Assembly (NCBI GenBank): GCA_900318205.1
Contig: ONJS01000036.1
Coordinates: 1-36,514 of the forward strand
Length of the DNA stretch: 36,514 bases
Direction of reading: 5' to 3'
Origin: an uncultured Prevotellaceae bacterium
GTDB taxonomy: Bacteria > Bacteroidota > Bacteroidia > Bacteroidales > Muribaculaceae
Part shown: one piece after another, positions 3,509-5,668 of the stretch
Numbering within the stretch: the first letter of the stretch is position 1
How the letters are laid out: the number at the start of each line of letters is the position of its first letter
Made by a program: the position numbers and the translations under genes
The notes under the pieces: generated by a model
The model's database searches: none
Told to the model about the DNA's origin: nothing
What the model saw: the letters and a program-made list of their open reading frames with translations, nothing else

Positions 3509-5143
3509 GTGGAAACAAGATACATATTTGTCACTGGCGGCGTCGTTTCGTCGCTCGGAAAAGGCATCATCGCCTCAAGCATCGCGCGACTGCTGCTCTC
3601 GCGTGGCTACAGCGTCACCTGCCAGAAGTTTGACCCCTATATCAACATCGATCCTGGCACGTTGAACCCCTATGAGCACGGCGAGTGCTACGTCACTGTC
3701 GATGGCCATGAGGCCGACCTGGACCTGGGTCACTATGAGCGTTTTACCAACATCAAGACCACGCGTGCCAATAATGTCACCACCGGTCGTGTCTATCAGA
3801 GCGTCATCGACAAGGAGCGCCGCGGCGACTACCTGGGCAAGACGGTGCAGATCATCCCCCACATCACCGACGAGATCAAGCGCGACGTCAAGCTGCTGGG
3901 AACCACCGGCAAGTATGACTTCGTCATCACCGAGATTGGTGGTACCGTCGGCGATATCGAGGCATTGCCGTTTATTGAAGCCATCCGCCAGCTGCGTTGG
4001 GAGCTGGGCAGGCGCTGCATCTGTGTGCACCTGACCTATGTCCCCTATATCAGCGCTGCCAAGGAGCTCAAGACCAAACCCACCCAGCACAGCGTCAAGC
4101 TGTTGCAGCAGGAAGGTATCCAGCCCGACATCCTCGTGCTGCGCACCGAGCACCCCCTGCCGCCCACCATGCTCAAGAAGGTGGCACAGTTCTGTAACGT
4201 CAGCGCCGATGCCGTTGTACAGTCGCTCGACGTGCCCACCATCTATGAGGTGCCCCTCAAGATGCACGAGCAGCGCCTGGACAACATCATCATCGAGAAG
4301 ACAGGTCTCGAGGTGAAGGGTGAGCCCGATCTGGCGAAGTGGAACGATTTCCTCGCCAAACTCAAGGGCGCAACACAGGAAGTGCGCATCGGCTTGGTCG
4401 GCAAGTACGTCTCGCTGCAGGATGCCTACAAGAGCATTGACGAGAGCCTGTTGCACGCCTGCGCTTACCACGATCGTCGCCTCAAGCTGGACTATATCAA
4501 CAGCGAACATATCAACGACGGCAACGTCGAGCAGTTGCTGGCAGGTCATGACGGTATCGTCGTCGCTCCGGGATTCGGACAGCGTGGCATCGAGGGCAAG
4601 TATATCGCCCTCAGATGGTGTCGTGAGCACGATGTGCCCACTTTCGGCATCTGTCTGGGTATGCAGTGCATGGTCATCGAGTTTGCACGCAACGTCCTGG
4701 GTCTCACCGATGCCAACAGCACTGAGATTGATGCCAAGACGCCCCACAACGTCATCGACCTCATGGAGGACCAGAAGACCGTCACCAACATGGGCGGCAC
4801 GATGCGACTCGGCGCGTATGCCTGCACTGTCAAACCTGGCACGAAGGTTGCAGAAGCCTATGGAAAGACCGACATCGAAGAGCGTCACCGTCACCGCTTC
4901 GAGTTCAACGACGAGTACCGCAAGCGTTTTGAGGACGCTGGCATGACCATCGCCGGTGTGAACCCCGAGAGCGGCCTGGCCGAGGTCATTGAACTCACCG
5001 GCCATCGCTGGTACATCGGTACCCAGTACCACCCCGAGTACTCCAGCACCGTCCTCAATCCTCACCCCCTCTTCATGTCCTTCATCGAAGCCATCATCGC
5101 TGGCGAGTCCTCTTCATCTCACGCAAAGCCGCAAAGCCGCTAA
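3509..5143 (+). CDS. pyrG: CTP synthase
   Basis: Cytosolic enzyme converting UTP, glutamine and ATP to CTP, the last step of de novo pyrimidine nucleotide synthesis. The 544 residues are the normal length. The N-terminal synthetase domain (about 1-270) begins with the glycine-rich [10 protein letters not shown] loop and has the conserved [14 protein letters not shown] and GTVGDIE segments. The C-terminal class I glutamine amidotransferase domain has the nucleophile Cys382 in GICLGMQ and the His508/Glu510 pair in YHPEYSS. The start is GTG, chosen because the conserved [10 protein letters not shown] begins at once and the promoter is only 31 bp upstream. The last residues (SHAKPQSR) and the TAA stop are encoded by a CGCAAAG-type intergenic repeat, so the tail is not family sequence. 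In related genomes pyrG usually lies next to yidC, as here apart from one small gene. Confidence 0.97.
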
Positions 5144-5149
5144 GTTTTT
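5118..5149 (-). repeat. CTTAGCGN-type short-word repeat, copy 2, inverted, inside the pyrG 3' end
   Basis: On the plus strand it reads CTCACGCAAAGCC then GCAAAGCCGCTAAG and a T-run. Its reverse complement aligns without gaps over 32 bp to 5637-5668 with about five mismatches. It encodes the last eight codons of pyrG and its stop. With copy 3 it forms an inverted pair around the GxxExxY gene. Confidence 0.85.
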
Positions 5150-5207
5150 AAGTGGCTGTCGCAGAACTATAAAACGAGATTTATATTGGAGCTAAGTCTA
5201 TTACAAG

Positions 5208-5612
5208 ATGTGTGAGCAAAAGGTTTGGGCTGACGATGGAACAAAACCGATTCTGGATAGCATCTTTGAGGTGTACAAGAATTTAGGTCCAGGATTGTTG
5301 GAGTCAGTATATGAAAAGGCCTTGATGATGGAGTTGGCTTCACGAGGCATGACAGTTAAGAATCAAGTGCCTGTCAGGGCTTATTACAAGGGTATCGATT
5401 TACAGATGGATTTCAGGCTTGATATCCTTGTAAATGATACAGTGGTGATTGAATTAAAATCGGTTGAGCAGTTACTCCCCGTTCATGAGAAGCAACTACT
5501 CACTTATCTGAAATTGGCTGATAAGCAATTGGGATTGCTGGTGAACTTTAATGAGAGTTATCTCAAGAGAGGAATCAAACGGATTGTAAATGGCTATAAA
5601 GAAGAAAATTAG
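5208..5612 (+). CDS. GxxExxY protein (PDDEXK_3 family)
   Basis: A 134-residue protein of the GxxExxY family, named for the motif seen here as GLLESVY near residues 30-36. The family is assigned to the PD-(D/E)XK nuclease-like fold. Core residues fit: an Asp in FRLDILV, then IELKS (the E-x-K element), then HEKQLLTYLKL, which resembles the Gln/Tyr helix. Cellular function is not established for the family, and nuclease activity here is inference from fold. The gene is visibly richer in A+T than its neighbours and is bracketed by inverted CTTAGCGN repeats (5118-5149 and 5637-5668), which suggests acquisition as a small cassette. The ATG is the only good start; a GGAG lies about 17 bp upstream, which is rather far. 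No partner toxin, antitoxin or methylase gene is adjacent. Confidence 0.85.
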   Translation: MCEQKVWADDGTKPILDSIFEVYKNLGPGLLESVYEKALMMELASRGMTVKNQVPVRAYYKGIDLQMDFRLDILVNDTVVIELKSVEQLLPVHEKQLLTYLKLADKQLGLLVNFNESYLKRGIKRIVNGYKEEN

Positions 5613-5636
5613 AACTAACCGAAGAATGAAATAAAT

Positions 5637-5668
5637 TAAAACTTAGCGTCTTAGCGACTTAGCGTGAG
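5637..5668 (+). repeat. CTTAGCGN-type short-word repeat, copy 3
   Basis: CTTAGCGT, CTTAGCGA and CTTAGCGTGAG occur in tandem after a TAAAA. It starts 25 bp after the GxxExxY stop and ends 44 bp before yidC. It pairs as an imperfect 32-bp inverted repeat with 5118-5149. Confidence 0.85.

Follow-up and report, generated by a model that had tools for sequence, protein, structure and literature searches.

Our results indicate that a gene of the GxxExxY family and the two inverted repeat arms that enclose it form one small, mostly chromosomal mobile cassette, and that the encoded nuclease is the most likely agent of its movement; we give this joint reading a probability of roughly 0.6. The cassette lies in the window, by which we mean the whole 36,514-nucleotide stretch of DNA that was analyzed. 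The reading draws on several observations: the unit of gene and arms itself, a match between arms and protein, mirrored spacing within the arms, presence and absence of the cassette at a given site, the swapping of cassettes at such sites, and an intact nuclease signature in the protein.

In the window, the GxxExxY gene (5208..5612, + strand) encodes a protein of 134 amino acids and is located between pyrG (ORF at 3509-5143) and yidC (5713-7797). Its GC content of 40.0%, compared with 57.9% for pyrG and 53.9% for yidC, confirmed an earlier sequence-only reading of this DNA, according to which the gene is richer in A+T than both neighbors. The left arm (5118..5149, - strand) consists of CTCA followed by three heptamers, CGCAAAG-C-CGCAAAG-C-CGCTAAG, with spacers of 1 and 1. 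The right arm (5637..5668, + strand) is its mirror image, CTTAGCG-T-CTTAGCG-A-CTTAGCG, with the spacers of the left arm and a terminal TGAG. Between 5118-5148 and 5638-5668, 27 of 31 nucleotides matched (87% complementary), with 489 nucleotides enclosed. The best inverted-repeat score for the two 300-bp flanks was 21.0, a value that was reached by 0 of 1000 Markov shuffles (maximum, 15.0), so the enclosing repeats claimed by the same reading are real. A chance origin of the arms was ruled out by these shuffles together with the mismatched-flank and other-gene controls described below. The left arm is included in the pyrG ORF, where it encodes the final residues and the stop codon; the pyrG C terminus reads SHAKPQSR in the window's genome, and DHQQ (L076) and SSMKN (L077) in two relatives with an empty site.

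The protein passed the GxxExxY profile TIGR04256 with 144.2 bits (curated cutoff, 35) and the PDDEXK_3 profile PF13366 with 141.1 bits (cutoff, 22). These were its only matches at E ≤ 0.001, with no match to a transposase or to Y1 (HUH) among them. Residues Asp-72, Glu-82, Lys-84, Gln-96, and Tyr-100 (D72, E82, K84, Q96, and Y100) are invariant across 33 aligned GxxExxY members. The window protein contains the D, ExK, and QxxxY residues that we take to be the motif of RecB/Cas4-type PD-(D/E)XK nucleases, and it was assigned to that fold. Cas4 has a four-cysteine Fe-S cluster; the window protein has only one cysteine and thus lacks the Cas4-type Fe-S set.

Among the sampled genomes of the same phylum, GxxExxY genes were found in 152 of 296 and four-helix-bundle (S23) genes in 88 of 118. 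At an E value of 1e-5, GxxExxY matches occurred in 8 of 72,556 plasmid records and in 0 of 50,697 phages, indicating that the element is mostly chromosomal in these collections. RAYTs are likewise described as mostly chromosomal. A single DNA query gave 0 matches in Escherichia coli genomes. In one of the plasmid records, radA adjoins the GxxExxY gene. We also noticed that, in a single genus, four species (L178, L180, L181, and L187) have a GxxExxY stretch that shares its reading frame with a RecQ-like helicase; it is truncated in L185. Two loci (L122 and L123) carry two GxxExxY genes in direct tandem, the duplicated unit being 92-94% identical, and at L148, L149, and L143, the genes have arms of the CTGAACTATGATT/CTGAATCGCGGAT type, a further repeat family.

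Flanking inverted repeats proved to be a property of the family and not of the window alone. In the first locus set, 33 of 35 GxxExxY loci reached a flank inverted-repeat score of at least 12, compared with 164 of 1190 mismatched flank pairs. Heptamer types shared among the loci raise the mismatched-flank rates, so that the test errs on the conservative side. In 60 longer stretches, the corresponding counts were 42 of 63 GxxExxY genes and 16 of 446 ORFs more than 600 bp away (28 of 571 for all control ORFs). When one procedure was applied to 30 loci per family, taken nonrandomly with the best-scoring matches first, a score of at least 12 was obtained for 28 GxxExxY loci (mismatched, 14.9%), 20 four-helix-bundle S23 loci (4.0%), 18 Y1_Tnp/RAYT loci (7.7%), and 1 ParE locus (1.6%); at a score of at least 14, the numbers were 16, 15, 14, and 0, respectively. 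The flank windows differed between these comparisons (400, 200, and 300 bp). The ParE result rules out a general trait of small accessory genes, and the expectation that such repeats accompany GxxExxY genes more often than unrelated ones was borne out by both control designs. The RAYT-type genes served as a known positive with ends of a different kind. Their flanks score, yet they look palindromic and nonperiodic, and we therefore rejected the idea that they are the same thing.

After removal of near-duplicates, 107 of 141 GxxExxY loci scored at least 12 and 34 scored below, in a set that still contains orthologues. The named loci, which are the best 80 of at least 570 confirmed relatives and of which 78 had both flanks, gave 59 of 78 (mismatched, 13.8%); an archaeon and a cyanobacterium were among the 19 below the threshold. 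By our own grouping of the record names, a score of at least 12 was reached in 20 of 34 loci from the Bacteroidota/Ignavibacteria/Chlorobi group and in 39 of 44 from other phyla, the latter spanning Planctomycetota, Chloroflexota, Acidobacteriota, several proteobacterial classes, Spirochaetota, Verrucomicrobiota, Omnitrophota, and others. Not every scoring pair consists of inward heptamers: among these 44 loci, both flanks carried inward CRCNRAG arrays in 35 and outward ones in 7 (some of them also inward), and 7 had neither.

An arm is built of two to four near-identical heptamers (CRCNRAG and kin) with set spacers, mirrored at both ends. The units most often found by the CRCNRAG scan were CACAGAG, CGCAAAG, CACGGAG, CGCAGAG, and CGCTAAG. 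Among GxxExxY arms with a score of at least 12 and a length of at least 20, the best internal lag was 8-10 in 79 of 89; a z of 3 was reached by 44 of the 89, 42 of them at a lag of 8-10, compared with 2.8% of shuffled arms. The best lag was 7 in 13 of 17 four-helix-bundle arms, and 0 of 15 RAYT arms, which look palindromic, reached a z of 3 for a period.

The repeat of the window cassette is dispersed in its genome. With one mismatch allowed, the window-repeat pattern CTTAGCGNCTTAGCG gave 93 matches, compared with 0 for the reversed control. These matches group into 57 arrays, two of which are the arms of the window cassette. Arrays lying no more than 150 bp apart were oriented (-,+), as around the window gene, in 8 cases, (+,-) in 0, and (+,+) in 3. 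Reading of 18 array loci revealed several inverted pairs that are compact and enclose a short loop (L002, L007, L018, L036, and L038), besides single arrays and clusters. In three of the CTTAGCG pairs (L018, L036, and L038), the loop holds a second inverted repeat, TTGCTCGCAAGAGGCTCGCAA/TTGCGAGC(A/T)CTTGCGAGCAA, and these are apparently nested elements.

All 5 of the 5 GxxExxY genes found in this genome sit between inverted tandem arrays, which differ in sequence from gene to gene: CGCAAAG/CGCTAAG in the window, ACGAATT-like at L010 and L011, GACAAGA-like at L012, and ACAACTC-like at L013. Gene-less copies of such arrays were recognized by eye elsewhere in the genome (e.g. L003, L005, L008, and L022). 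The proposal that the window repeat represents the private ends of this gene did not survive, as the repeat forms 57 arrays genome-wide and brackets 0 of the other 4 GxxExxY genes. The sequence-only reading had also seen a third copy, possibly an empty site, at about 3379-3404. This gene-less, degenerate copy of the right arm (3379..3404, + strand; CTAGCGGCTTAGTGGCTTAGCGTGAG) upstream of pyrG is a real repeat, detected at 3378-3400 with 3 mismatches in the three-unit scan, but it is one of the 57 dispersed arrays and not an empty site.

Genes for four-helix-bundle (S23) proteins are found in a sister form of the GxxExxY architecture, whose arms are mostly of period 7. The window's genome has seven such matches, and all three that were inspected have arms: TTAGACN at L241, where the two arms have no exact 8-mer in common, TGTTTAA-like at L448, and GATTAGT/GATTAGA at L449. 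At 3078-3172 of the window, about 13 TTAGACN heptamers stand in tandem, a gene-less, expanded copy of the unit that forms the L241 arms. In two relatives (L078 and L080), S23 genes outside rRNA are located between period-7 inverted arrays. The part of PMC5524665 that was accessible only lists four-helix-bundle genes.

The arms correspond to the protein that they enclose. Across 5194 nonsyntenic pairs from 103 loci, arm similarity rose with protein identity (Mantel r 0.389; 0 of 999 permutations). On a tree of 90 proteins, the spacer class required 15 changes, compared with a shuffled mean of 40.7 and a minimum of 33, and the CAC/CGC unit type required 12 changes on the protein tree, compared with 28.2 when shuffled. 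Within the window's genus, we fetched 12 loci of the window's own subtype (at least 63% protein identity); 11 had both flanks, and all 11 carried CGCTAAG-type arms, 7 at pyrG-yidC and 4 (L311-L314) with neither pyrG nor yidC within 1.5 kb. Less similar proteins in this genus set carry other heptamers, and 26 of 29 assessable loci scored at least 12.

Because an unrelated four-helix-bundle protein is found in the same architecture, movement could depend on a third party. The arrays would then be moved by some other factor, either a RAYT-like Y1 transposase or host recombination and repair, with the GxxExxY and four-helix-bundle genes as cargo in the loop. We regard this as unlikely, but it is the strongest rival because the two unrelated proteins share one plan; moreover, arrays without such a gene outnumber those that bear one, and Y1_Tnp genes also occur in these genomes (3 in G000). 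A cargo gene, however, need not leave its mark on the ends, whereas arm sequence and spacing track GxxExxY relatedness and the arm period is specific to the family (8-10 compared with 7). The flanks of Y1_Tnp genes are also of another, palindromic kind without periodicity. Together, these data speak against a third-party mover and leave it a minor share of the probability.

The geometry of the two arms is mirrored as well. Counted from the outer end, spacer lengths were equal in 148 of 156 facing pairs, compared with 108 of 190 nonfacing ones. Where unit numbers were equal, with at least three on each side, the whole spacer pattern was identical in 46 of 47 loci (permuted mean, 15.7; maximum, 26), a count that favors symmetry, as 35 loci with unequal unit numbers are excluded from it; the comparison of 148/156 with 108/190 is independent of equal numbers. 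When pyrG-yidC orthologues and repeated proteins were dropped, the pattern was identical in 41 of 42 loci (permuted mean, 12.5; maximum, 23). Examples of such patterns are (1,1), (2,2), and (3,4,3). The bases behaved differently from the geometry: variable unit positions agreed in 609 of 753 comparisons between facing units and in 1074 of 1350 between nonfacing units of the same element, and spacer bases agreed in 143 of 288 facing and 88 of 188 nonfacing comparisons. The heptamer scan behind these counts fixes C.C..AG by design, found both arms in 95 of 226 loci and the opposite orientation in 18 of 226, and covers CRCNRAG-type arms only. Mirrored geometry with facing bases that match no better suggests that the unit is conserved as a motif, with no sign that pairing is selected. 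Because indels are rarer than substitutions, mirrored spacing alone could also be left over from an inverted duplication.

These counts bear on a second alternative, modeled on 23S rRNA intervening sequences: the arms would pair in the transcript and leave the ORF in the loop, and selection would act on RNA processing by RNase III. Mirrored spacers are compatible with such a stem, four-helix-bundle genes are found in the same architecture, and the outline resembles that of the Coxiella intervening sequence as given in the accessible part of PMC4990558. Nevertheless, a selected base-paired stem is unsupported in CRCNRAG-type arms, where facing units match no better than others, and we consider this explanation improbable.

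Related genomes differ at the same site. We fetched 24 pyrG-yidC loci from the window's genus, its own included; one was ended by a contig end, leaving 23 readable junctions, and one match in G316 stood outside the set. Fifteen of the 23 had neither a GxxExxY nor a four-helix-bundle match, in answer to the search for empty sites proposed by the sequence-only reading, and the other 8 were filled with three kinds of cassette, so the gene is not a family-wide, repeat-free fixture of this position. The window's own type with its arms was found in L074 and L084, and L083 keeps both arms although most of the gene is deleted. Another GxxExxY type with GAGAAATTAAACAAAAT-like arms occupies L079, L081, and L082, and in L078 and L080, the site holds a four-helix-bundle gene whose arms have period 7. 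At 30354-30463, the window itself has an inverted repeat with 41-nucleotide arms (78%) and GCGAGAAATCAAACAAAATTA; it resembles the arms found at L079, L081, and L082 and by eye is apparently a gene-less copy.

A similar picture emerged in genus g57, which belongs to the same phylum but is more distant; over the compared loci, its species share 84-94% identity. Groups F and H, which by eye looked like restriction-modification genes, were dropped, and group G was left out of the query. The first site is the cleanest: G054 and G026 have the cassette with both arms, G163 and G038 lack it at the same site, and the arms bound the extra segment. The cassette is also absent from G100, which may reflect a deletion, since a short stretch resembling the right flank is kept there. 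No target-site duplication was found at the base-level empty site of g57, where the flanks differ by a few bases. The second site carries the gene in four species and, in G054, no more than a short pair of arms without a gene. The gene at the third site has decayed in G038, with the outer arm ends remaining, and at the fourth site, the gene is present in three species and a different gene-less element in G163.

A close relative of the window's organism, G343, was compared at 18 of 22 own elements and 19 candidate places, with L005, L017, L041, and L042 dropped as ambiguous or unmatched and matches in G383 left out. G343 shares some of the arrays (e.g. L002, L007, and L014). At the L010 site, our genome has a 631-bp stretch with the gene, compared with a 153-bp stretch with a CGCTAAG hairpin in G343; at the L012 site, 572 bp with the gene stand against 138 bp that by eye seem to be a gene-less pair of related arms. 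No recent multicopy burst was seen among the all-against-all matches listed, in which most copies had diverged and near-identity was confined to tandem pairs (L122 and L123). Turnover at the sites could instead be due to homologous recombination or deletion, and the direction of change at most of them is one that we infer.

The turnover weighs heavily on the two remaining alternatives. Mirrored motif arrays do resemble protein-binding sites, and they might serve as operators of the GxxExxY gene and of other genes, bound by GxxExxY itself or by a host regulator, without any movement; we hold this to be very improbable, given that the sites of near relatives are empty, filled, or swapped, that the arms bound the extra segment at the first g57 site, and that the own subtype appears with the same arms at other loci. 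Least probable of all is an element resembling a homing endonuclease, whose nuclease would cut the empty site for homologous repair to copy the cassette in, with the arms as by-products: a PD-(D/E)XK fold and the occupation of pyrG-yidC in 8 of 23 same-genus loci, several of one subtype, fit this scheme, but this subtype is found with the same arms elsewhere (L311-L314), gene-less arrays are dispersed, and one site takes different payloads.

We therefore return to the nuclease-bearing cassette. The idea of a mobile cassette, put forward for the window alone, stands and extends to other loci and phyla; that the nuclease mobilizes its own gene is the part that we infer. A cassette would be gained, lost, and swapped at intergenic sites. 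The GxxExxY nuclease would recognize its own arms by their heptamer sequence and spacing and would cut at the arrays of both cassette ends, and host repair might then lose, insert, or copy the cassette, by excision and insertion or by copying. Binding and cutting of the arms, the route of movement, and the role of the nuclease as its driver are all predicted from the patterns described here. Gene-less derivatives, comprising two arms and a short loop or a single arm, are scattered in the genome and would probably be moved in trans. A wider version of this model is tentative, and we rate its chances as somewhat below even: a lone nuclease would read array sequence and spacing and move its own gene and gene-less derivatives in many phyla, S23 would be a sister system with 23S intervening sequences as one branch, and many short dispersed bacterial repeats would be its footprints.

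The shared architecture gives two common orphan families, GxxExxY and four-helix-bundle S23, a shared genetic context. If the model is true, several dispersed repeat families would be explained at once, a new kind of DNA mover would be recognized, with ends identified through the sequence and spacing of their heptamers, and a route to the origin of 23S rRNA intervening sequences would be opened. In a literature search that ran outside subscription papers and bioRxiv, no title or abstract described the GxxExxY arrangement, and the accessible passages on GxxExxY were not about repeats. To our knowledge, no mobile system described so far has this type of enzyme or heptamer ends that are mirrored and matched in spacing.

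Among known systems, nucleases of the Cas4, lambda-exonuclease, and RecB types differ from the window protein, which is a stand-alone protein of 134 amino acids between repeats, with pyrG and yidC as neighbors. MITEs and IS elements share terminal inverted repeats and gene-less derivatives with the cassette, but here the enclosed gene has no transposase match and the arms are internally periodic; the empty site in g57, with flanks that differ by a few bases, showed no target-site duplication. According to the accessible part of PMC4990558, the intervening sequence of Coxiella is 428 nucleotides long and has terminal inverted repeats that form a 28-bp stem and an S23 ORF; the origin of 23S rRNA intervening sequences is called unclear there. 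The GxxExxY cassette likewise holds a short ORF between terminal inverted repeats, and our data include S23 genes that have this architecture outside rRNA; it differs in lying at pyrG-yidC instead of in rRNA, in encoding another protein, and in giving no sign that pairing is selected in CRCNRAG-type arms. The closest precedent is REPIN/RAYT, in which, as described in the accessible part of PMC3116915, a gene lies between inverted repeat copies, gene-less inverted doublets are dispersed in the genome, and the repeat type is tied to the protein. The GxxExxY cassette has the same gene between inverted repeats and dispersed gene-less inverted doublets, but it encodes a PD-(D/E)XK nuclease in place of a Y1 transposase, and its ends are mirrored heptamer arrays, whereas those of RAYTs are palindromic REPs. 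The overall logic of the cassette thus has a REPIN/RAYT precedent, and our best reading is of an undescribed small chromosomal mobile element that follows this logic with a RecB/Cas4-type nuclease.
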